Origin: a virus
Strand: one strand, 5' to 3'
DNA: 22,070 bases
IMG/VR virus record: IMGVR_UViG_3300025652_007838
Location: 1-22,070 of that record
The notes under the pieces were generated by a model, which saw only the letters and a list, made by a program, of their open reading frames with translations, did not search any database and was not told where the DNA came from. Shown here piece by piece: positions 4,296 to 20,887 of this stretch (positions are counted from its first letter, which is position 1; every line of letters begins with the position of its first letter). The position numbers were made by a program, and so were the translations under genes.

Positions 4296-4330
4296 TTTGA
4301 CTGGATGCATTTTCCAAGTATATAATTTAG
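4296..4330 (+). promoter_or_regulatory. Candidate promoter for the 4360 gene
   Basis: TTTG at 4296-4299 resembles the Bacteroidota -33 element, and TAATTTAG at 4323-4330 matches the -7 consensus TAnnTTTG in 7 of 8 positions. The gap between them is 23 bp, at the long end of what is accepted. About 30 bp of AT-rich leader separates it from the ATG at 4360. Confidence 0.45.
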
Positions 4331-5542: not shown

Positions 5543-5639
5543 ATCTTACGGGTGCACTCGCGTAGATCGAATACATAAACATATATAAGTATACAGATTC
5601 TGATAGTATCCTTTAGACGCTTTAAAATGAGTTAGTCAG

Positions 5640-5840
5640 TAAACAAAGTAAACAATAAATAAACAATCATTGTTTCTTCTACACAACTAATGTTCATAAG
5701 GCTTTGCTCAGGAATAAACAATGTAAACAATAATATATAGAAACTTTTGAAAAGGAGTGTAATAGTACTAATACCATATAAATAGCAGTATTACGACGAA
5801 TTAAAGTGTTACAAAGTATTGTTTCTATTGTTTCTTGTTT
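5640..5840. repeat. AAACAAT/ATTGTTT repeat cluster (candidate operators or iterons)
   Basis: The 7-mer AAACAAT occurs on the + strand at 5650, 5661, 5716 and 5725, with an imperfect copy AAACAAA at 5641. Its complement ATTGTTT occurs at 5669, 5818 and 5827, with an imperfect copy at 5834. Three pairs are exactly 9 bp apart (5641/5650, 5716/5725, 5818/5827). AAACAATCATTGTTT at 5661-5675 is a perfect palindrome with a 1-bp centre. Forward copies lie on the left and inverted copies on the right. Regularly spaced repeats beside an HTH regulator and a replication module fit operators or origin iterons. The sequence does not say which. Confidence 0.7.
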
Positions 5841-5904
5841 CTCCTAATCATAAATATTTTTCAAAATTAATTGAAAAAAAATTTTTAAATGTTATTTTAA
5901 TAGT

Positions 5905-5912
5905 TACTTTTG
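5905..5912 (+). promoter_or_regulatory. -7 box for the HTH regulator gene
   Basis: TACTTTTG at 5905-5912 is a perfect match to the Bacteroidota -7 consensus TAnnTTTG. A good -33 TTTG at normal spacing is not seen, since the region is nearly pure A+T. Transcription from here would give a leader of only about 10 nt before the ATG at 5928. It would also place a TTG at 5910 inside the promoter, which supports ATG 5928 as the true start. Confidence 0.45.
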
Positions 5913-5927
5913 GATCAAAATTACACG

Positions 5928-6335
5928 ATGAATAAAATAGATTTGAAAAAAATCATAGAAGACCAAGGATTAAATATCAAAGAGGTCGCATTAGAGTTGT
6001 TCCCTACGAACAAATATTCAAAGCTTGCGCTGGACAGGGTTATAAGAGGAGAAGCTTTTTTAGACTCTAACCAAATAAGTAAGTTATCAAGTCTTACTAG
6101 AATACCTATTCAATTCCTTTTTTCCGAAGACAAATGGGAAAAGAAGGCTAAGGATAAAATGGTGATATTCACTTCGGGAAATTATAGAGCTGAATTGAAT
6201 ACCTCTACTAACGTGACTCGTATATTCCATGAGACTTCTCTGTTTCACGAATCCTTATTACACACAAAGTCCATTCCTTTGAATGAATATTTATCCGAAC
6301 TAGAACAAATAATAATCAAATATAATAAATCATGA
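5928..6335 (+). CDS. XRE-like helix-turn-helix regulator
   Basis: 135 residues from ATG 5928. A TTG 18 bp upstream is in frame but falls inside the promoter box and adds nothing domain-like. Residues 1-65 fit a Cro/C1-type HTH: DLKKIIEDQGLNIKEVALELFP, then KLALDRVIRGEAFLDSNQISKLSSLTRIPIQFLF, with the recognition helix around residues 30-40. The C-terminal 70 residues form a small alpha/beta part ending in a helix (YLSELEQIIIKY). It is the first gene after the AAACAAT repeat region, so it may bind those repeats and control the downstream replication genes or itself. Phage repressor, Cro-like or replication-initiation regulator are all possible. Its stop overlaps the next start (ATGA at 6332-6335). 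Confidence 0.65.
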   Translation: MNKIDLKKIIEDQGLNIKEVALELFPTNKYSKLALDRVIRGEAFLDSNQISKLSSLTRIPIQFLFSEDKWEKKAKDKMVIFTSGNYRAELNTSTNVTRIFHETSLFHESLLHTKSIPLNEYLSELEQIIIKYNKS

Positions 6336-7975: not shown

Positions 7976-8038
7976 GTTTTATTCCTAACTAAAAGTTTTA
8001 TAGATTAGCAAAGATAAAATATATAAATTAAAAACTAG
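7976..8038 (+). promoter_or_regulatory. Promoter and leader for the ssDNA-binding protein gene
   Basis: GTTTTATT (7976-7983) lies upstream of a -7 box TAGATTAGC (8001-8009), a TAnnTTAG variant of the Bacteroidota TAnnTTTG. The leader AATTAAAAACTAG (8026-8038) ends 6 nt before ATG 8045. The same box and leader recur at 15655-15709 and 20374-20428, which strengthens the call. Confidence 0.55.
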
Positions 8039-8614: not shown

Positions 8615-8697
8615 GGCAGTGTAGCTCAGTAGGTAGAGCGTTCTCACACTCATAGAGTTCTCGGGAAAAGTCAGAGGTTCGATTCCTTTTACTGCCA
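8615..8697 (+). tRNA. tRNA-like gene with enlarged anticodon loop, isotype unassigned
   Basis: The cloverleaf can be drawn. Acceptor stem GGCAGTG (8615-8621) pairs with TACTGCC (8690-8696), one G-T. The D arm is GCTC-AGTAGGTA-GAGC (8624-8639). The T arm is AGAGG-TTCGATT-CCTTT (8673-8689), and the 5-nt variable loop is AAGTC. The anticodon stem is TTCTC (8641-8645) with GGGAA (8663-8667), but the loop between is 17 nt instead of 7. It contains CTCATAG (8649-8655), which resembles a CAU anticodon context, and a small hairpin ACTC-ATA-GAGT. A second TTCTC sits at 8658-8662. CCA is not encoded (ACAA follows). The alternative reading as a long-variable-arm tRNA gives a C at position 33 and is less convincing. 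It could be a degenerate tRNA or a tRNA-like RNA element. Confidence 0.65.
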
Positions 8698-8717
8698 CAA
8701 AAAAAACAAGCAAGCAA

Positions 8718-10676
8718 ATGATCAAAAAACTACACATAGACATAGAGACTTACAGCTCTGTAGATATCAAGACTTCCGGATCTTACAAATATATGGAATC
8801 TTTGGATTTTGAAATCCTTATGGTTGCTTTTGCATTTGACGAGGGACCTATTCAAATTATAGATTTAGCTTTAGGTGAAAAATTACCCCGAAAATTCATA
8901 AAAAACTTAACGGACCCTAAAGTAGAAAAGCACGCACACAATGCTAACTTCGAGAGAAATGCTTTCAGGACTTACGGATATGATGTACCAATAAAACAAT
9001 GGAAATGTACAGCTATAAAAGCTGCTTATTGCGGACTCCCTCTCTCCCTTAAAATGGTTTCAAAAGCTTTAGAGTTAGAGGACAGAGGTAAATCTTCTAC
9101 AGGGGAATCACTCATTAGGTTTTTCTGTAGTCCTATAAAAGCAACTAAAGCAAACGACCACAGAGTTAGGAATTTTCCTAAACATGACATGGAGAAATGG
9201 GAGGAATTTAAACAATATTGCGTACAAGATGTAGAGGCGGAAAGAACTATAGATAACATTTTAATGAACTATAGACTTCCGTTGTTTGAGAAAAGAAACT
9301 ACATGTTGGATCAAAAAATAAACGATACAGGATTACTTACGGATTTGGATTTTGCCCGTAAAGCTTATGTCATGAATGATAAGTTCTCAACTCAACTGAT
9401 GATAGAATTCAAAGAGTTAACAGGACTAGAGAACCCTAACAGTCCAGCTCAGCTTAAGAAATGGCTCAGTGATCTAATGCAAAAAGAGGTTACAACATTA
9501 GCTAAAGATGGACTCGATGCTTTAATTGAAGAGTCTGAGTTGGACATAGTTAGGAAAGCAATAGGCTACCGTAAAAAACTTTCTAAATCTTCCGTTAAAA
9601 AGTATGTTTCTATGATGAATTGTGCTTGTGAGGACGAAAGAGTTCGGGGCCTTTTCCAATTCTATGGAGCAAACAGGACAGGGAGATGGTCAGGAAGACT
9701 AGTTCAACTTCAAAATCTGCCCAGGAACTATCTTAAAGATCTAGATGAAGCTAGACGATTAGTAGCTTCGGGAGATTATGATTTAGCTATGATGCTTTAC
9801 AATAATATAGCTAACATCCTTTCAGAACTTATAAGAACAGCATTCGTCCCTAAACCTAATCACACTTTTGTGGTGGCAGATTTCAGTGCCATTGAAGCAA
9901 GAGTAATTTCTTGGCTTGCAGGAGAAAAATGGAGGATAGAAGTTTTCGAAAGTCACGGAAAAATATATGAAGCTTCTGCTTCAATGATGTTTAATGTTCC
10001 TATAGAAAAAATAACTAAAGGATCAGATCTTAGACAGAAAGGGAAAACAGCCGAATTAGCTTTAGGATACCAAGGATCCATAGGAGCTATGAAAGCAATG
10101 GACAGAGACAACAAGTTGACCGACCCTGAGATGAGAATCATAGTTAAAAAATGGAGAAAGGCGAATCCTAACATAGTTAAACTGTGGTGGAATTTGAACG
10201 AGTGCGCAATAGCTGCAGTAAAAAAGAGAACCAAGATTGTATCTAAATATAAAAATCTGGAGTTCGAATATGACGGGACAGCATTGACTATAAAACTACC
10301 TTCCGGTAAAAAACTTTTTTATTGGGAACCTAAGATACAAAAAAACAAATACAACAATGAAGCATTAGTGTACAGAGGAGTAGACCAAAAAACTGCTCAA
10401 TGGGTTTATGTAGACACTTACGGAGGAAAACTCGCAGAAAACATTGTGCAAGCAATTTCCAGAGATTTATTGGCTCACTCCATGTTAGAACTGGACAAAG
10501 AGGGATTTAACATTGTGATGCATGTACATGATGAAGCAATAGCGGAACAACCTATTGAAGGGTCAAAACAATCCCTTGAAAAAATGTGTAAAATAATGAG
10601 CAAAGACGTTCCTTGGGCGGAGGGATTACCTTTAGGAGCAGACGGTTATGTGACTCCTTATTATAAAAAAGATTAA
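8718..10676 (+). CDS. Family A DNA polymerase with 3'-5' exonuclease domain
   Basis: 652 residues, the usual size for phage PolA-like enzymes. The proofreading domain shows Exo I DIETYS (Asp8, Glu10), Exo II HNANFERN, and Exo III in YCVQDVEAE. The polymerase domain shows motif A VADFSAIEAR (Asp388), motif B RQKGKTAELALGYQGS (Arg439, Lys443, Tyr451) and motif C HVHDEA (His604, Asp605, Glu606), all intact. It should be the replicative polymerase of the phage. The ATG follows the tRNA by 20 nt, and its leader AAAAACAAGCAAGCAA carries the motif seen before several other starts here. No DNA-polymerase-I 5' nuclease domain is present. Confidence 0.95.
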   Translation: MIKKLHIDIETYSSVDIKTSGSYKYMESLDFEILMVAFAFDEGPIQIIDLALGEKLPRKFIKNLTDPKVEKHAHNANFERNAFRTYGYDVPIKQWKCTAIKAAYCGLPLSLKMVSKALELEDRGKSSTGESLIRFFCSPIKATKANDHRVRNFPKHDMEKWEEFKQYCVQDVEAERTIDNILMNYRLPLFEKRNYMLDQKINDTGLLTDLDFARKAYVMNDKFSTQLMIEFKELTGLENPNSPAQLKKWLSDLMQKEVTTLAKDGLDALIEESELDIVRKAIGYRKKLSKSSVKKYVSMMNCACEDERVRGLFQFYGANRTGRWSGRLVQLQNLPRNYLKDLDEARRLVASGDYDLAMMLYNNIANILSELIRTAFVPKPNHTFVVADFSAIEARVISWLAGEKWRIEVFESHGKIYEASASMMFNVPIEKITKGSDLRQKGKTAELALGYQGSIGAMKAMDRDNKLTDPEMRIIVKKWRKANPNIVKLWWNLNECAIAAVKKRTKIVSKYKNLEFEYDGTALTIKLPSGKKLFYWEPKIQKNKYNNEALVYRGVDQKTAQWVYVDTYGGKLAENIVQAISRDLLAHSMLELDKEGFNIVMHVHDEAIAEQPIEGSKQSLEKMCKIMSKDVPWAEGLPLGADGYVTPYYKKD

Positions 10677-15461: not shown

Positions 15462-15632
15462 ATGGCAACAAAATATTTAATATGGTACGTACAATGGGAA
15501 AATCAACCTAAATTAATAGAGAAGCAACGTTTCATTGAATACACGAGTATAAAAGCTTTCAACAAAGATCTACTGAGATTAAGAAAAAATCCTATGGTAT
15601 CAAGACTTAAACATACAACGTTTGAAAATTAG
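15462..15632 (+). CDS. Small basic hypothetical protein
   Basis: 56 residues: begins MATKYLIWYVQWENQPKLIE and ends RLRKNPMVSRLKHTTFEN. It starts 4 bp after the HNH-like gene and is the last gene before the promoter at 15655. The N-terminal strand (YLIWYVQWE) and basic helix (FNKDLLRLRKNP) could fold as a small alpha/beta unit. No family recognised. Coding status rests on frame, ATG start and fit between neighbours. Confidence 0.5.
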   Translation: MATKYLIWYVQWENQPKLIEKQRFIEYTSIKAFNKDLLRLRKNPMVSRLKHTTFEN

Positions 15633-15654: not shown

Positions 15655-15709
15655 TTTTTATATTAAATAATTTAGTTGTATGTTAGCTCCATAATTAAAA
15701 ACAAGCAAC
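15655..15709 (+). promoter_or_regulatory. Promoter and leader, copy of the 20374 element
   Basis: TTTTTATAT (15655-15663), 14 bp, then GTATGTTAGCT (15678-15688), 3 bp, then TAATTAAAAACAAGCAAC (15692-15709), 1 nt before ATG 15711. The identical parts with the identical 14-bp and 3-bp spacings occur at 20374-20428. TATGTTAG (15679-15686) is read as the -7 box, a TAnnTTAG variant. Confidence 0.7.
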
Positions 15710-15710
15710 C

Positions 15711-15911
15711 ATGGGAAAATATTCAATTTCAGCTACGAAAGAAGATTACAACAAAATGTATGAAAAGCTAAGAGAACTAGAGTCTAAGATGAATGGCAAC
15801 TGGAAAGGGGATAAGATTAAAAGATCAAGTTTAGATCAATTAGAAGTTCTTTATTCTGCAACAAAAAGGAGAATAGAGTCTCCAGATTATGAATTAATTA
15901 AAACAAGCTAA
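15711..15911 (+). CDS. Small hypothetical protein, first gene of operon
   Basis: 66 residues: MGKYSISATKEDYNKMYEKL, then a charged helix (RELESKMNGNWKGDKIKRSS) and QLEVLYSATKRRIESPDY, ending IKTS. Predicted mainly helical and soluble. No family recognised. It directly follows the strong promoter/leader element at 15655-15709. Its last codons (ATTAAAACAAGC, then TAA) double as the AAAACAAG leader of the next gene at 15915. The 65-residue protein at 20432 has the same position and the same IKTS ending but otherwise differs. Confidence 0.6.
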   Translation: MGKYSISATKEDYNKMYEKLRELESKMNGNWKGDKIKRSSLDQLEVLYSATKRRIESPDYELIKTS

Positions 15912-15914
15912 ATT

Positions 15915-16523
15915 ATGAAAGCAAAAATTTTTACAAAAGGAAACGAAAGTCAAATCTATTTATCGAATGGATCGGATTTCAAAAACAAAAAAGGAGAAGC
16001 CAAAGAGCAACTCATAGAAAGAGTTAGAAAATATGTTGAAGAAGACTTAATAGAGTCATTCGACCTAAAATTCATGGATGCTAAAAGCGTCAAAGCTCTT
16101 GCAAGTAAAGCAGTCCTTAAAACTTACCCTAACGTAAAAGGACTATTCAAAGAATTGTTAGGAGATTTATTGATCTCTAGAGGGATAGATATTCCGACAG
16201 AAGAGGAAAAACCAAAAGCTAAAAAGGAAATCCCTAAAAAGCCAGATTCTCCCAAAGATTCTCCCAAAGATTCTCCCAAGGACCGAACGGGAAGGCAAGC
16301 GATTTTAGATGCTTTCAAAGGAACTGAAGCCTACAAGAAGGCCAAGAAAAATGTAGGAAGGGATGTAACTTATAGAAACAGAGGGAATAAAAAGGATAAT
16401 GTAGGCATAGTTAAAGGGGTATTGATCAACCGAAATGCTACTAAAGCATACTACATGGTGTTAAACATCCACACGGGAAAAAGAGATTCTTGTATCTTCG
16501 AAAACCTAAAATTTATAAACTAA
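15915..16523 (+). CDS. Hypothetical protein with Ser-Pro-Lys-Asp repeat linker
   Basis: 202 residues in two parts. The N-terminal 95 residues are alpha/beta (KIFTKGNESQIYLSNGSDFK, then helices to LGDLLISRGIDIPTE). Next comes a charged proline linker with three DSPK units, encoded by three 12-bp tandem repeats at 16245-16280. The C-terminal 70 residues (GRDVTYRNRGNKKDNVGIVK onward, to FENLKFIN) look like a small beta-barrel, perhaps SH3- or KOW-like. No catalytic motif is visible and the family is not recognised. It has an AAAACAAGC leader motif 6 nt before the ATG and ends 1 bp before the DUF3310-like gene. Confidence 0.6.
   Translation: MKAKIFTKGNESQIYLSNGSDFKNKKGEAKEQLIERVRKYVEEDLIESFDLKFMDAKSVKALASKAVLKTYPNVKGLFKELLGDLLISRGIDIPTEEEKPKAKKEIPKKPDSPKDSPKDSPKDRTGRQAILDAFKGTEAYKKAKKNVGRDVTYRNRGNKKDNVGIVKGVLINRNATKAYYMVLNIHTGKRDSCIFENLKFIN
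16245..16280 (+). repeat. Three 12-bp tandem repeats inside a gene
   Basis: GATTCTCCCAAA at 16245 and 16257, and GATTCTCCCAAG at 16269, in frame, encoding DSPK three times in a linker of the 15915 gene. Only the last base differs, so the copies are probably recent and the unit number may vary by slippage. Confidence 0.9.
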
Positions 16524-16524
16524 A

Positions 16525-16896
16525 ATGGCTTACGACGATAAAGGGACTGCAAGCCACTATGATGATCAGAGAATAAACATGGCTCACATGGTGGAAAGAA
16601 TATGGGGAACAGAAGCAGCTATGTTATTCCATGAAATGAATGCTTTTAAATATAGAATGAGAATAGGAAAAAAAGACGATCCTTCTCAAGAGATACTAAA
16701 AGCAGAATGGTCGGAAAAGATGGCTAAATTTCTTAAAAATAAGACTATCCGAATGAAGGGGATAGGTTTAGGAGATCATCCCCTTTACTCTGAATTCAAA
16801 GATATACTAGAGGGGAAAATAGGTACAGAATGCACTTGTCACATAGGAGCACCATACAACAGTTTATGTTGCCCAATACATAAAAACGATGGATAG
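16525..16896 (+). CDS. DUF3310-like protein with C-terminal Cys/His cluster
   Basis: 123 residues. Residues 10-70 follow the DUF3310 pattern of phage proteins often called nucleotide kinase (HYxxxxI...F...NxxKYxxRxGxK...xxLKAxW): SHYDDQRINMAHMVERIWG, FHEMNAFKYRMRIGKKDD, then EILKAEWSEKMAKFL. The kinase label is unproven, and helical similarity to MazG-like NTP pyrophosphatases has also been suggested. The tail CTCHIGAPYNSLCCPIH (103-119) has four Cys and two His and may bind zinc, an unusual addition. It overlaps the thymidylate-synthase-family gene by 8 bp, so a nucleotide-metabolism role is reasonable. Confidence 0.6.
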   Translation: MAYDDKGTASHYDDQRINMAHMVERIWGTEAAMLFHEMNAFKYRMRIGKKDDPSQEILKAEWSEKMAKFLKNKTIRMKGIGLGDHPLYSEFKDILEGKIGTECTCHIGAPYNSLCCPIHKNDG

Positions 16897-17680
16897 AATA
16901 TTTCCTTCCCCTTTCGAAATGATAAGATATGCTGGAGAATTACTATCGGGTCCTTCTTCGAAAGTTATAGATCCCGGAAAATGGCAAGGGATACAGATAC
17001 AAAATTTCAAAATGGTAGAGATTTTCGATAGAGTATTTAGATGTAACATTCCGGGATCTTTTGAACAATTGGCAATTGAAACTAATGCGGATCTCCCTTG
17101 GGCAGAAGATCATTTCAATGAGCGAATAGGAGAAAAACCTACTAACCCTGGGGACACTTACCTCTACTGGCCTTACTATAAGGAAGATGAAAGGATAAGA
17201 TCTAAAATCTTCACCCATACTTATCAAGAAAGATTTTGGCCTAAAAGAGTAGGAAAAATCACTAATAGATTAGAGGAAGACAACAAAGGGTTGAGATATG
17301 GATTAGGAGACTATTTTGATGTAGTTACTCATCTTGCAAAAAATCCTTATACAAGACAGGCATTTCTACCTATATGGTTTCCGGAAGATACCGGAGTAAG
17401 ACATAAAGGAAGAGTTCCGTGCACATTAGGGTATTTGTTCTCATATCGAGAAGGATATTTACATTTGACTTATTACATAAGATCATGTGATTATATTAGG
17501 CATTTTAAAAACGACGTGTACATGGCTTGTAGGTTATTACAGCACACTCTAGAACTATTAAGCTATCAGAGCAGTAGTATAGATTGGACGAAAGTAAAAC
17601 CCGGGAGACTAAAAATGGATGTTGAGTCCTTACACATATTCGAATCAGACAAATTAGAACTTAAAAAACGATTGAAATAA
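16889..17680 (+). CDS. Thymidylate-synthase-family enzyme (TS or pyrimidine hydroxymethylase)
   Basis: 263 residues, about the length of ThyA. The family core is clear: HTYQERFWP, NPYTRQAFLPIWFPEDTG (Arg156), RVPCTLGYLF with the catalytic Cys178, YYIRSCDYIRHFKNDVYMAC (Arg198, Ser199, Asp201) and LHIF (His249) near the end. The enzyme would methylate dUMP, or hydroxymethylate dUMP or dCMP, with methylene-tetrahydrofolate. The residue that sets uracil or cytosine preference (Asn in ThyA, Asp in dCMP hydroxymethylases) falls in HFKNDVY, where Asn208 and Asp209 are adjacent, so I cannot tell which it is. It overlaps DUF3310-like (8 bp) and the methyltransferase (1 bp), within a nucleotide block. 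Confidence 0.8.
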   Translation: MDRIFPSPFEMIRYAGELLSGPSSKVIDPGKWQGIQIQNFKMVEIFDRVFRCNIPGSFEQLAIETNADLPWAEDHFNERIGEKPTNPGDTYLYWPYYKEDERIRSKIFTHTYQERFWPKRVGKITNRLEEDNKGLRYGLGDYFDVVTHLAKNPYTRQAFLPIWFPEDTGVRHKGRVPCTLGYLFSYREGYLHLTYYIRSCDYIRHFKNDVYMACRLLQHTLELLSYQSSSIDWTKVKPGRLKMDVESLHIFESDKLELKKRLK

Positions 17681-18609
17681 TGAGCGTATACACCAACAAA
17701 TTAAACAGACCAGGAGAATCATTAAAGTTTAGAATGGACATACCTGAAGACTTCCACTGGGAAGATTTAACCATAGAAGAGTTCTTTGGTGAAATATATG
17801 ATACTGAAAACGATAAATATTATTCTCGTAATTGCGGAAGAGATTATCGTCCTAAATCCAAACAGAAGCATTTGGACGAAGGTCACTTCCAAGGATATTC
17901 GTTTGGAGTAGAACGTTTCTGTCCAGAAGGAGGGAGAGTACTAGATCCATTTGTAGGATCAGGAACTGCTATCATAGAATCCTATTTACAAGGAAGACAC
18001 GGAGTAGGCATCGAAGTAGAATTCAATCAATTACTAGATGATAACATTAAACATATTCAGGAGAATCATCCGACTAAAGGATCAATGGAGAGACTACTCG
18101 GAGATTGTAGAGAAGTACTACATGATGTGAATGAAGAAATACTTATGGGAGACACAGAACAATTTGATTTAGTAATCACCGGATTCCCTTACCCCATAAT
18201 TAGTGGCAATGTTACTTCAGATGCTCCTATGAATCCAAATAAAAACGGAGGAAAAGGATTTCAGAAGATCGATTATGAAGCAGAAAAATCCTTAGGTAAA
18301 CTCAAATGGAAGGGAAATTTTAGACCGGAAATGGCTAAGGTGTTAACTCAGGCAACTCAGGGATTAAAGGTAGGAGGCCATTTCATAACCCTTATAAAAG
18401 ATTGCGTAAATAACAAAAAAGCATTTCTTTTACAGGACTACGTGAATCAAGATTTTATGGCAATGAATCCTAACTTTGAAATCAAAGGATGGTACATCCA
18501 TAGGCACTGTCCGGAAACTATGTTTATGAGAACTTACAACAAAAGATTTCCAGATGTAAAAATTCCATTTTACCAGGTAGGGCTAGTATTAGAAAAAATA
18601 TCAGAATGA
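17680..18609 (+). CDS. DNA N4/N6-methyltransferase-like protein with variant motif IV
   Basis: 309 residues. The SAM-binding motif I is VLDPFVGSGTAIIESYLQGRH (DPFVGSGT at 89-96), followed by GVGIEVE. Motif IV in DNA amino-methyltransferases is usually (D/N/S)PP(Y/F). Here the matching place reads LVITGFPYPIISGN (168-172), keeping the Pro-Tyr-Pro but replacing the usual SP/PP with GF. Near the end come GWYIHRHCPETMFMRTYNKR and a final strand QVGLVLEK. The order I before IV fits the alpha/gamma-like layout. The substrate could be adenine or N4-cytosine, or a nucleotide or already modified base given the variant motif. No restriction enzyme lies next to it. It overlaps the upstream gene by 1 bp. 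Confidence 0.75.
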   Translation: MSVYTNKLNRPGESLKFRMDIPEDFHWEDLTIEEFFGEIYDTENDKYYSRNCGRDYRPKSKQKHLDEGHFQGYSFGVERFCPEGGRVLDPFVGSGTAIIESYLQGRHGVGIEVEFNQLLDDNIKHIQENHPTKGSMERLLGDCREVLHDVNEEILMGDTEQFDLVITGFPYPIISGNVTSDAPMNPNKNGGKGFQKIDYEAEKSLGKLKWKGNFRPEMAKVLTQATQGLKVGGHFITLIKDCVNNKKAFLLQDYVNQDFMAMNPNFEIKGWYIHRHCPETMFMRTYNKRFPDVKIPFYQVGLVLEKISE

Positions 18610-18749
18610 TGAAAGAAAATGTAATAGTAAAAGAACTAATGAGGTCTGAAAGAATATACGGAATCTTAATCGGGATTCTAATAACATTCTTAACCATGTC
18701 TGGAGTAATCATATTAATCCTTTTAAACTATGAACTATGTGCGGAATAG
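18609..18749 (+). CDS. Small single-helix membrane peptide
   Basis: 46 residues (47 if the ATG at 18606 is used). A charged N-terminus MKENVIVKELMRSERIYG is followed by a hydrophobic helix (ILIGILITFLTMSGVIILIL, residues 19-38) and a short tail NYELCAE. The ATGATGA at 18606-18612 overlaps the methyltransferase stop, and its end overlaps the asparagine-synthetase-like gene by 13 bp. This tight packing and the clear helix argue for a real gene. Function unknown. It may simply anchor or regulate a neighbour. Confidence 0.55.
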   Translation: MKENVIVKELMRSERIYGILIGILITFLTMSGVIILILLNYELCAE

Positions 18750-20065
18750 CAATTAAATACAAGGATCACACCTGTAGTGCCAATAAAATTTCCCACAGGG
18801 GAATATACGGCAAAGGAAAACAGTTCGGAGATTATCTCATGACTCACTACAAACTTCCTTTGCAAACAGAACCAGGGGATGAATTTGATCAGCCTATTCG
18901 ACTTAGAAATGGGAATTATCTTTTGTTCAACGGCGAGATATTCAATGCTCCTAAGGAGTTTAAAAACGATGTTGAATATCTGGTAGATTTTTTCTCTAAA
19001 CCGAATTGGTTAGAATCCATAGGAGGAGCAGAATATAATCACTGGGATGGATTTTGGGCGATATGTATTGTCACACACGATAAGGTATACGCTTTTACTG
19101 ATCCCTTAGGCAAGAAGCAATTGTATTTCAGAGACGGATGCATAAGTTCGGAGATGAAACCCTTACTGTCCAACAGTAACAAAGATCCGAGATTCGATCA
19201 AGATGAAGTAATTGCCACAAGCGTAACTCCTTTCCATGGAGTTAGTAGAATATTACCTAACAGACTATACTGGTTTAAAGGAACTCAAGCAAACAGAAGC
19301 TCAAGGGAACTATTTGATCTCCGTAGACCTTCGAAGGATAAAGATCTCGTTAGGATGATTCATAACTCAGTAGAGAAAAGACTCATCAATACTCTAGACC
19401 AAAATACTTTGTTCGTAAGCGGGGGACTAGACTCAACCATAATCCTGAGTCACCTCCATTCGTTAGGAGTTGCTGACGACTTCCAATTACTTTCTGTAGA
19501 CAATTATAAAGATTCAGAATTTTTGTCCTGTATAGAGTCCTATTTTGGATATAAGGTAGATGTAATTCCTTCAGAACCTTATTCGGAAGATCAATTGAGA
19601 AAAGCTATAAAAGTATATGAGTATCCTTTGGAAAGAGGATCCCTATTGCAACAATTTAGATTATGCTCAAAAGTAAAAGGATCCGTAATTTATTCAGGGG
19701 ATGGAGCAGATGAATTATTCTCTGGATATTCTAGAGCTCAGATTCACGATTCCCAGAACTTCGATGTATTTGTAGAACTGCCTTATTATCACCATTTAAG
19801 ATTAGACAGAATTCCTATGCACTTTACAAAGGAATTAAGATCCCCTTTTCTAGATCACGAGATAGTTAGATTTGCTCTTAATTGTCCTTATGAATATCGT
19901 AAAGGCAAAAAAATACTGAAAGAATTATATAAAGGATCAATCCCTGATGAGATTATAAATAGAGAAAAATCTCCTCTGAGGGAAGAAAGTATGATCAGAG
20001 ACAGAAACTCTTACATTGAAAAAATAAAAACAACTTTTAATCAAATAAATTATGAAATTAACTAA
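18737..20065 (+). CDS. Glutamine-dependent asparagine-synthetase-like enzyme
   Basis: 442 residues against about 550 for bacterial AsnB. Residues 1-200 are a class II glutamine amidotransferase: MCGIA with the nucleophile Cys2, SHRG (19-22), QPIRL, FNGEIFN (64-70), DPLGKKQLYF and SSEMKPLL. Arg49 of E. coli AsnB appears replaced by Lys39 in THYKLPLQT. Residues 200-442 are the ATP pyrophosphatase synthetase domain: LFVSGGLDSTIIL (SGGLDS 228-233), SGDGADELFSGY (320-331), LRSPFLDHEIVRFAL, KKILKELYKGSIPDEIINRE. Both halves look active. It would use Gln and ATP to amidate a carboxylate, either aspartate or a modified base or peptide. The adjacent TS-family, methyltransferase and MazG-like genes make a DNA or nucleotide modification role possible. 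Confidence 0.9.
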   Translation: MCGIAIKYKDHTCSANKISHRGIYGKGKQFGDYLMTHYKLPLQTEPGDEFDQPIRLRNGNYLLFNGEIFNAPKEFKNDVEYLVDFFSKPNWLESIGGAEYNHWDGFWAICIVTHDKVYAFTDPLGKKQLYFRDGCISSEMKPLLSNSNKDPRFDQDEVIATSVTPFHGVSRILPNRLYWFKGTQANRSSRELFDLRRPSKDKDLVRMIHNSVEKRLINTLDQNTLFVSGGLDSTIILSHLHSLGVADDFQLLSVDNYKDSEFLSCIESYFGYKVDVIPSEPYSEDQLRKAIKVYEYPLERGSLLQQFRLCSKVKGSVIYSGDGADELFSGYSRAQIHDSQNFDVFVELPYYHHLRLDRIPMHFTKELRSPFLDHEIVRFALNCPYEYRKGKKILKELYKGSIPDEIINREKSPLREESMIRDRNSYIEKIKTTFNQINYEIN

Positions 20066-20351
20066 TGAATTTTTACCTATAAGAATGTGGGCAGGAAAAA
20101 GAGGGATCTACAGAAAAGGGGATGTGAAAACTCAATTGATAAAACTGGTAGAGGAGCAAGGAGAATTGGCTAAGGCTATTCTCAAGGAAGATGACAAAGA
20201 GTTCATAGATGCTATAGGGGACTGCGTTGTAGTACTTACTAATCTTGCTCATCTGGGAGGAGTAAGCATAGAAGACTGTATAAATTCAGCTTTTAAGGAA
20301 ATAGAAAATAGAGAGGGAGAAATGAAAAATGGAACTTTTGTTAAAAAATAA
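20052..20351 (+). CDS. MazG-like nucleotide pyrophosphohydrolase
   Basis: 99 residues. LVEEQGELAKAILKEDD (Glu34, Glu35, Glu38) followed by EFIDAIGDCVVVLTNLA (Glu50, Asp53, Asp57) is the paired acidic metal-binding pattern of single-domain phage MazG-like proteins, an all-alpha NTP pyrophosphatase fold. The C-terminal helix with VSIEDCINSAFKEIENREGE is also typical. It would hydrolyse a (d)NTP or an alarmone to the monophosphate. Behind a TS-family enzyme this could supply dUMP or dCMP, or remove unmodified nucleotides. It overlaps the asparagine-synthetase-like gene by 14 bp and ends the operon before the 20374 promoter. Confidence 0.85.
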   Translation: MKLTNEFLPIRMWAGKRGIYRKGDVKTQLIKLVEEQGELAKAILKEDDKEFIDAIGDCVVVLTNLAHLGGVSIEDCINSAFKEIENREGEMKNGTFVKK

Positions 20352-20373
20352 TTTCACTTTTTATTGAAAATTA

Positions 20374-20428
20374 TTTTTATATCTTAGAACTTATCAGTAT
20401 GTTAGCTATGTAATTAAAAACAAGCAAC
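20374..20428 (+). promoter_or_regulatory. Promoter and leader, copy of the 15655 element
   Basis: TTTTTATAT (20374-20382), 14 bp, GTATGTTAGCT (20397-20407), 3 bp, TAATTAAAAACAAGCAAC (20411-20428), then ATG at 20432. TATGTTAG (20398-20405) is the presumed -7 box. The blocks are identical to those at 15655-15709 while the spacers differ, which marks the blocks as functional. Confidence 0.7.
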
Positions 20429-20632: not shown

Positions 20633-20887
20633 ATGTACATAGGAAAAACAAAAATACTAGACGAAGATCTAAAAGTAGATCAGCCTATCCAAGGAGAAAA
20701 ATACCACACGAGTTGGGCAAAGAGAGGATGTGTATGGAAGTTCACAGGTTTTGATGCAGGAGGAATGTGTCTCCTGGAAACTCCTAAGTCGAGGAAATTG
20801 ATCAAAACATCGATCACTTCATTAAGACACATTAATCGTAACGCACTTAATAATGCTCAAAAAAGATTGAAAGATGGAAATGAATGA
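20633..20887 (+). CDS. Small basic hypothetical protein
   Basis: 84 residues: MYIGKTKILDEDLKVDQPIQ, then SWAKRGCVWKFTGFDAGGMC and a basic end (KSRKLIKTSITSLRHINRNALN). The middle (CVWKFTGFDAGGMCLLETPK) looks like a small beta-barrel, as in SH3-like modules, and the tail is helical and basic, so nucleic-acid binding is possible. Family not recognised. The AAAACAAG motif ends 7 nt before the ATG. Its end overlaps the tiny membrane peptide gene by 8 bp. Confidence 0.55.
   Translation: MYIGKTKILDEDLKVDQPIQGEKYHTSWAKRGCVWKFTGFDAGGMCLLETPKSRKLIKTSITSLRHINRNALNNAQKRLKDGNE

Follow-up and report, generated by a model that had tools for sequence, protein, structure and literature searches.

Could a phage possess a promoter class of its own, which recurs in its relatives and serves only some of its genes? 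This question is raised by a stretch of virus DNA of 22,070 nucleotides (positions 1 to 22,070 of the IMG/VR record IMGVR_UViG_3300025652_007838), here called the window, which has a GC content of 35% and is a fragment of the genome of a virus that apparently infects flavobacteria-like Bacteroidota. A sequence-only reading of the window had described two near-identical promoter-leader cassettes, and had suggested that their unusual -7 box, TAnnTTAGC instead of TAnnTTTG, could mean a phage-modified RNA polymerase or a timed expression class. Here, we report that the two cassettes belong to a phage promoter class, which relatives share at orthologous genes and which is seen only in the replication half of the genome. 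Based on sequence comparison, the part that defines this class is an upstream block of A- and T-tracts, not the -7 box, and the promoters are probably read by the host polymerase with its primary sigma factor, sigma-A.

Two cassettes and four promoters

The element TTTTTATAT-N14-GTATGTTAGCT is present without mismatch at 15655-15688 and 20374-20407, and both copies continue with N3 and TAATTAAAAACAAGCAAC. The full repeat between the two small operons comprises 73 nt with 78% identity. In shuffled windows, only 0.01 matches are expected with up to three mismatches, and two matches occurred in no shuffle. The two elements, with their equal spacings, are exactly as first described, and chance does not account for them. 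A second IMG/VR contig contains both elements, but it is 99.97% identical, that is, the same virus, and it was rejected as independent support. Consequently, independent evidence was needed from divergent relatives.

The relatives were collected via the DNA polymerase (17 IMG/VR loci, the same virus excluded), and more loci were added from an alignment search, together with one isolate, Croceibacter phage P2559Y, the nearest named relative. A block model was trained on ten sites of two relatives (L008 and L009), using columns -48 to -13 only and omitting the -7 box; the scores and thresholds are those of our own scripts. It should be noted that many tests pool relatives, so that the counts are not fully independent, and that the bacterial comparison genomes are Bacteroidia.

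Four members of the class are found in the window (Table 1), with -7 boxes starting at 5905, 8001, 15679 and 20398, which precede a helix-turn-helix (HTH) gene, ssb, the 15.7-kb operon and the exonuclease operon, respectively. In each, A-tracts at even intervals are combined with a T-tract on the -33 box and with a -7 box. Three of them (5905, 15679 and 20398) are found by the block model, while 8001 scores lower. The promoter at 5905, which had been overlooked in the sequence-only reading, is the top sense-strand match in the window, and that at 15679 is recovered by the model although the latter was trained only on the two relatives and without the -7 box. The tracts at 15679 are AAA at -53, TTT at -46, A at -41 and AAA at -30, with a predicted start at about 15691; the layout at 20398 is the same, with a predicted start at about 20410. 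Two more sites had been proposed as members, with different outcomes. Judged by position and orthology, 8001 is a genuine one, though its block is weaker (11.7, whereas the two named sites score 19.4 and 19.6). The site at 4323, in contrast, has no upstream block and a score of -19 against the same two values, and was dropped.

The class in relatives and its genomic placement

As the sequence-only reading had proposed, the element was looked for in relatives, and the class recurs at orthologous genes of divergent phages. TAnnTTAGC promoters are found before genes with upstream sequence alike, and the sites located in the other, held-out phages by the model of the upstream block alone have a -7 box whose distance from the block is exactly that of the training sites. 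At a score of at least 15, block and box occur together at 34 sites in the 193 kb of core phage DNA, a set that includes the training phages L008 and L009, versus 1 in 1.57 Mb of Bacteroidia DNA. Block promoters recur in front of the HTH gene, ssb, the genes that follow the SNF2 helicase and the exonuclease operon, an arrangement that matches the four positions in the window. For example, a block promoter precedes the HTH orthologue in L007-L010, L121, L125, P2559Y and others, and the ssb orthologue in L006, L007, L008, L009, L010, L015, L120, L125, L157 and P2559Y, while orthologues of the exonuclease-operon promoter at 20398 are present in L006, L010, L123 and P2559Y.

In the four long records (P2559Y, G004, G003 and G008), all 23 of the 23 block promoters are located outside the structural module (p ~1e-4 by intergenic length), and G002 agrees. 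In these phages, the terminase or head genes have ordinary TAnnTTTG promoters that lack the block. The confinement to the replication half, together with the conservation at orthologous genes, makes a separately timed expression class plausible, and direction and position fit one co-regulated, possibly timed set. The four promoters would most likely drive replication and nucleotide-metabolism operons as one co-expressed gene set.

Table 1. Block promoters, leaders and adjacent genes identified in the window
Feature	Start	End	Strand	Description
Block promoter 1	5852	5913	+	Before HTH gene; -7 box TACTTTTGG at 5905-5913; block score 21.9
HTH protein	5928	6335	+	First gene of replication module, kept in most relatives; candidate regulator
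Block promoter 2	7948	8009	+	Before ssb (DUF2815); -7 box TAGATTAGC at 8001-8009; weaker block, score 11.7
Block promoter 3	15626	15687	+	T-tract 15655-15659 on -33 box; -7 box TATGTTAGC at 15679-15687; score 19.4
Leader TAATTAAAAACAAGCAAC	15692	15709	+	Putative A-rich translation initiation region (sequence and PMC6847099)
First gene of 15.7-kb operon	15711	15911	+	Open reading frame, 66 aa, ends IKTS
ATTAAAACAAGCTAAATT	15897	15914	+	IKTS codons and stop of first gene, also A-rich leader of gene at 15915
Block promoter 4	20345	20406	+	T-tract 20374-20378; -7 box TATGTTAGC at 20398-20406; score 19.6
Leader TAATTAAAAACAAGCAAC	20411	20428	+	Putative A-rich translation initiation region (sequence and PMC6847099)
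First gene of exonuclease operon	20432	20629	+	Open reading frame, 65 aa, ends IKTS
ATTAAAACAAGTTAAGCC	20615	20632	+	IKTS codons and stop, also A-rich leader of gene at 20633

The upstream block

The block was described from an alignment of 58 sites, with positions given relative to the first T in the -7 box; these sites were seeded by the model and are thus partly selected for the block. The A-tracts occupy -53 to -50, -42 to -40 and -31 to -27, the one at -53 falling outside the columns used in training; the T-tracts occupy -46 to -43 and -23 to -19. According to a study on Flavobacterium psychrophilum (PMC9723704), the -7 box TAnnTTTG spans -12 to -5. If this also applies here, the centres of the A-tracts lie at about -41, -53 and -64 from the expected start, one helical turn apart. 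The sites of the C-terminal domain of the polymerase alpha subunit (alpha-CTD) in E. coli are near -42 and -52 (PMC4496709), the positions of the upstream promoter (UP) element, and the alignment has A/T tracts in phase near both. The bacterial TTTG promoters have T at -23 to -20 and at -15 in common with the block promoters, which corresponds to the sigma-A core. At the -33 box, where TTG is expected about 19 nt from the -7 box, the window has a T-tract, and TTTTG is present in the GC-richer relative L125 and in many unrelated phages. In addition, two dyad-like AAAA-N3/4-TTTT sites lie within the block, at a distance of about 23 bp from each other.

The rigid skeleton was also scanned over 2.9 million viral contigs. 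Together with TTAGC it was found in 19 viral stretches and together with TTTG[CT] in at least 80, while the skeleton with a scrambled box gave no match in all these contigs. The TTTG[CT] stretches fall in 32 sequence clusters, and in most of them no homologue of the phage HTH, ssb or polymerase was detected, some of the stretches being short. Since the skeleton is present in many unrelated viral stretches, compared with 5 matches in 395 Bacteroidia genomes, the block is a promoter skeleton of wide occurrence in phages.

The -7 box

In the window phage and its closest relatives, the -7 box is predominantly TAnnTTAGC, and three of the four window promoters have it, the fourth having TACTTTTGG. 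In upstream regions, the sense and antisense counts of TAnnTTAG are 26/6 in core phages versus 14/11 in the bacterial genomes, and those of TAnnTTTG are 21/18 versus 80/30, an inversion of box preference with Fisher p ~1e-6. In 119 Bacteroidia genomes, the T-tract pattern with TAnnTTTGCA is enriched over the reversed control, and the version with TTAGCA is not.

However, the box varies at orthologous promoters. At ssb, the window shares TTAGC with L006, L008, L009 and P2559Y; TTTAC is found in L010, L015 and L125, and TTTGA in L007 and L120. At the HTH gene, most close relatives have TTAGC, and the window and distant relatives have TTTG. Different boxes are even present within one genome, as in P2559Y and L007. 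Each of TTAGC, TTTAC and TTTGA is one A away from TTTGC, and the first two are used at a low level (sense/antisense 7/1 and 27/10, respectively) in "flavobacteria-like" genomes, which are rich in Flavo-1 RNA and stand in for Flavobacteriaceae. Given this low-level use and the single-A differences, TTAGC looks like a tolerated minor sigma-A variant that this lineage made its main form.

Which polymerase would read the promoters?

The reading that we favour, and regard as rather probable, is that these are host sigma-A promoters with a UP-element-like block, which serve the replication module. The four promoters would be read by the RNA polymerase with the host primary sigma factor, TAnnTTAGC being a minor tolerated form of TAnnTTTGC and the T-tract acting as the -33 box. 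The three A-tracts (about -41, -53 and -64) would constitute a UP-like element for the alpha C-terminal domains and make up for the imperfect boxes. The block class would thus mark one co-expressed gene set, with the structural genes on ordinary TAnnTTTG promoters. Several points weigh against this. The transcription starts are predicted ones. The A-tracts are not seen at ordinary bacterial promoters and the skeleton is nearly absent from bacteria, although hosts are expected to use a UP element at their own strong promoters. The core phages avoid TTTG[CT] in the block class, which a simple sigma-A reading does not require. Finally, the strict E. coli UP core AAAWWTWTTTT is matched at 18 of the 58 sites, and therefore the UP reading rests on the positions of the tracts, not on the exact sequence.

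Could a phage protein be responsible instead? The promoters may be activator-dependent middle promoters like the MotA promoters of T4, a possibility that we consider clearly less likely. Here, a phage protein, possibly the HTH protein at 5928-6335, would bind the AAAAnnnTTTT sites beside and over the -33 box, and would recruit or retarget the sigma-A polymerase, letting the -7 box drift. This would account for the two dyad-like sites, the almost phage-only occurrence of the block and the avoidance of the best host -7 box by core phages, and a Cro/CI-like HTH gene indeed heads the module with its own block promoter. However, many viral contigs have the skeleton with no HTH, ssb or polA homologue detected (some pieces are short), and the known transcription-takeover families are unmatched. 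Somewhat more doubtful still is a phage-borne class of Bacteroidota middle promoters, in which a phage factor would bind the phased A-tract block and shift sigma-A recognition, so that lineages drift to a -7 box of their own (TTAGC, TTTAC or TTTGA), off the host TTTGC. As for the HTH protein itself, its homologues in relatives have 28-58% identity, its AlphaFold2 model has a confidence (pLDDT) of 87, and Foldseek points to a Cro/CI-type N-terminal domain with a probability of ~1, but with E values of 0.07 or worse. In L016, L017 and L018 the protein is present with no block before its gene, which counts against the activator reading. As an explanation of the block it is further weakened by the unrelated phages that have the block and no detected homologue, some of these stretches being short. 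The modelled fold, the dyad-like block over the -33 box and the block promoter at the HTH gene itself would also suit an autorepressor, with the block as its operator and not a positive promoter element. This is very unlikely, for the objections to the activator reading apply here too, and a polA search of 395 Bacteroidia genomes for host or prophage relatives gave only the already known Dysgonomonas locus (one related polA), so that lysogeny control seems unlikely.

Specific reading of TAnnTTAGC by a phage-modified polymerase, as envisaged at the outset, or by an alternative or phage-encoded sigma factor is improbable. It could explain the sense bias of TAnnTTAG in core phages relative to the pooled bacterial genomes. 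However, orthologous promoters with the same block carry TTTAC, TTTGA or TTTG, more than one box is in use within the genomes of P2559Y and L007, flavobacteria-like genomes have TTAGC and TTTAC as minor host-type variants, and unrelated phages pair the block with ordinary TTTG. Moreover, no phage RNA polymerase or sigma gene is annotated in the complete P2559Y genome, and none was found among the scanned proteins of P2559Y and of the window, itself a fragment. The last alternative, that the likeness arose by chance in AT-rich DNA or that one cassette was recently duplicated, might be prompted by the low GC content and the 73-nt repeat, but the shuffle controls, the lack of matches with the scrambled box and the conservation at orthologous genes in divergent phages make it extremely improbable.

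Comparison with known promoters

The favoured sigma-A reading is in line with the Bacteroidota sigma-A promoters (-33 TTG and -7 TAnnTTTG), which are alike in box positions, spacing and the T at the -33 box and at -15. The block class differs from them in the -7 box, which is one base off with TAnnTTAGC dominating instead of TTTG, and in the phased A-tracts, which ordinary host promoters lack. Promoters with a UP element, such as E. coli rrnB P1 with its alpha-CTD sites at about -42 and -52, are similar in having A/T tracts at about -41 and -53, one helical turn apart. However, the block class has a third tract at about -64, and its rigid form is nearly absent from bacterial genomes. The T4 middle promoters also combine a phage-specific upstream box with a host-like downstream box and serve replication genes, whereas here no MotA or AsiA homologue was found, the block is common to unrelated phages and the -7 box itself varies. 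The SM1-SM3 promoters of F. psychrophilum are TAnnTTTG variants assigned to sigma-A, and the consulted passages of that study mention no TTAGC variant combined with an A-tract block (PMC9723704). A phage promoter class of this form was not found in the searched literature on flavobacteria or Bacteroidota.

If the sigma-A reading is true, the skeleton would be a searchable signature of phage replication regulons in Bacteroidota, and, in a phylum on which standard genetic tools perform poorly, would be a source of candidate strong promoters. The role of a UP element with the unusual sigma factor of this phylum could then be tested in a named isolate, P2559Y (Croceibacter atlanticus HTCC2559).

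Leaders and IKTS endings

The two genes of 65 and 66 residues ending in IKTS, which had been noted after the elements, are indeed present as open reading frames, and the last codons of both carry the leader of the next gene, with AAACAAG located 14 nt 5' of the next ATG both times. AAACAAG is found 12-14 nt 5' of five start codons in the window (polA, 15711, 15915, 20432 and 20633). Flavobacterium is without Shine-Dalgarno sites, and adenines at -14 to -11 and -3 favour initiation (PMC6847099). From its sequence, the repeated AAAACAAG leader appears to be a normal Bacteroidota A-rich translation start region. Where it overlaps the end of the preceding gene, it reads ATT AAA ACA AGY TAA, that is, IKTS. 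Because the A-rich leader overlaps the preceding stop codon, both small proteins end in IKTS, and these endings would be a coding side-effect for which a shared protein function is not needed. Neither Pfam nor PHROG gave a match for the small proteins, and the relatives that were searched contain no homologue of them. The predicted first transcribed bases are alike within one phage, being ACTATCAAATAA-like in L009 (leaders after 6754, 7170, 9258, 14409 and 20828) and AATTAAAAACAAGCAAC at the two named promoters of the window, and the leader seems to be homogenised per phage.

Neighbouring features

Just 5' of the promoter at 15679, a 56-aa open reading frame (15462-15632) with no PHROG match may be the final gene of the operon before it. 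The row of genes at 16525-20351 looks like a nucleotide or DNA modification set, with DUF3310, thymidylate-synthase-like, N6/N4 methylase-like, asparagine-synthase/GATase-like and MazG-like members. Between ssb and polA, a tRNA-Glu gene (anticodon ctc) is located at 8615-8698 of the window; in P2559Y, the gene in the same place is tRNA-like and its anticodon is odd (26696-26783 in L196), and L016 has a tRNA-like sequence right before polA, near 9908. In several of these phages, clusters of short AAACAAT / ATTGTTT repeats are found in noncoding DNA beside module borders (about 5620-5870 in the window, 1-130 in P2559Y, 24480-24530 in G003 and upstream of the terminase in G004), which are possibly iterons of a replication origin. 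In addition, a contig binned as Robiginitomaculum sp. (L040, JALZUP010000257.1) contains a phage of this family with a Bacteroidota-type TAnnTTTGC promoter before its HTH gene, and is probably wrongly binned.

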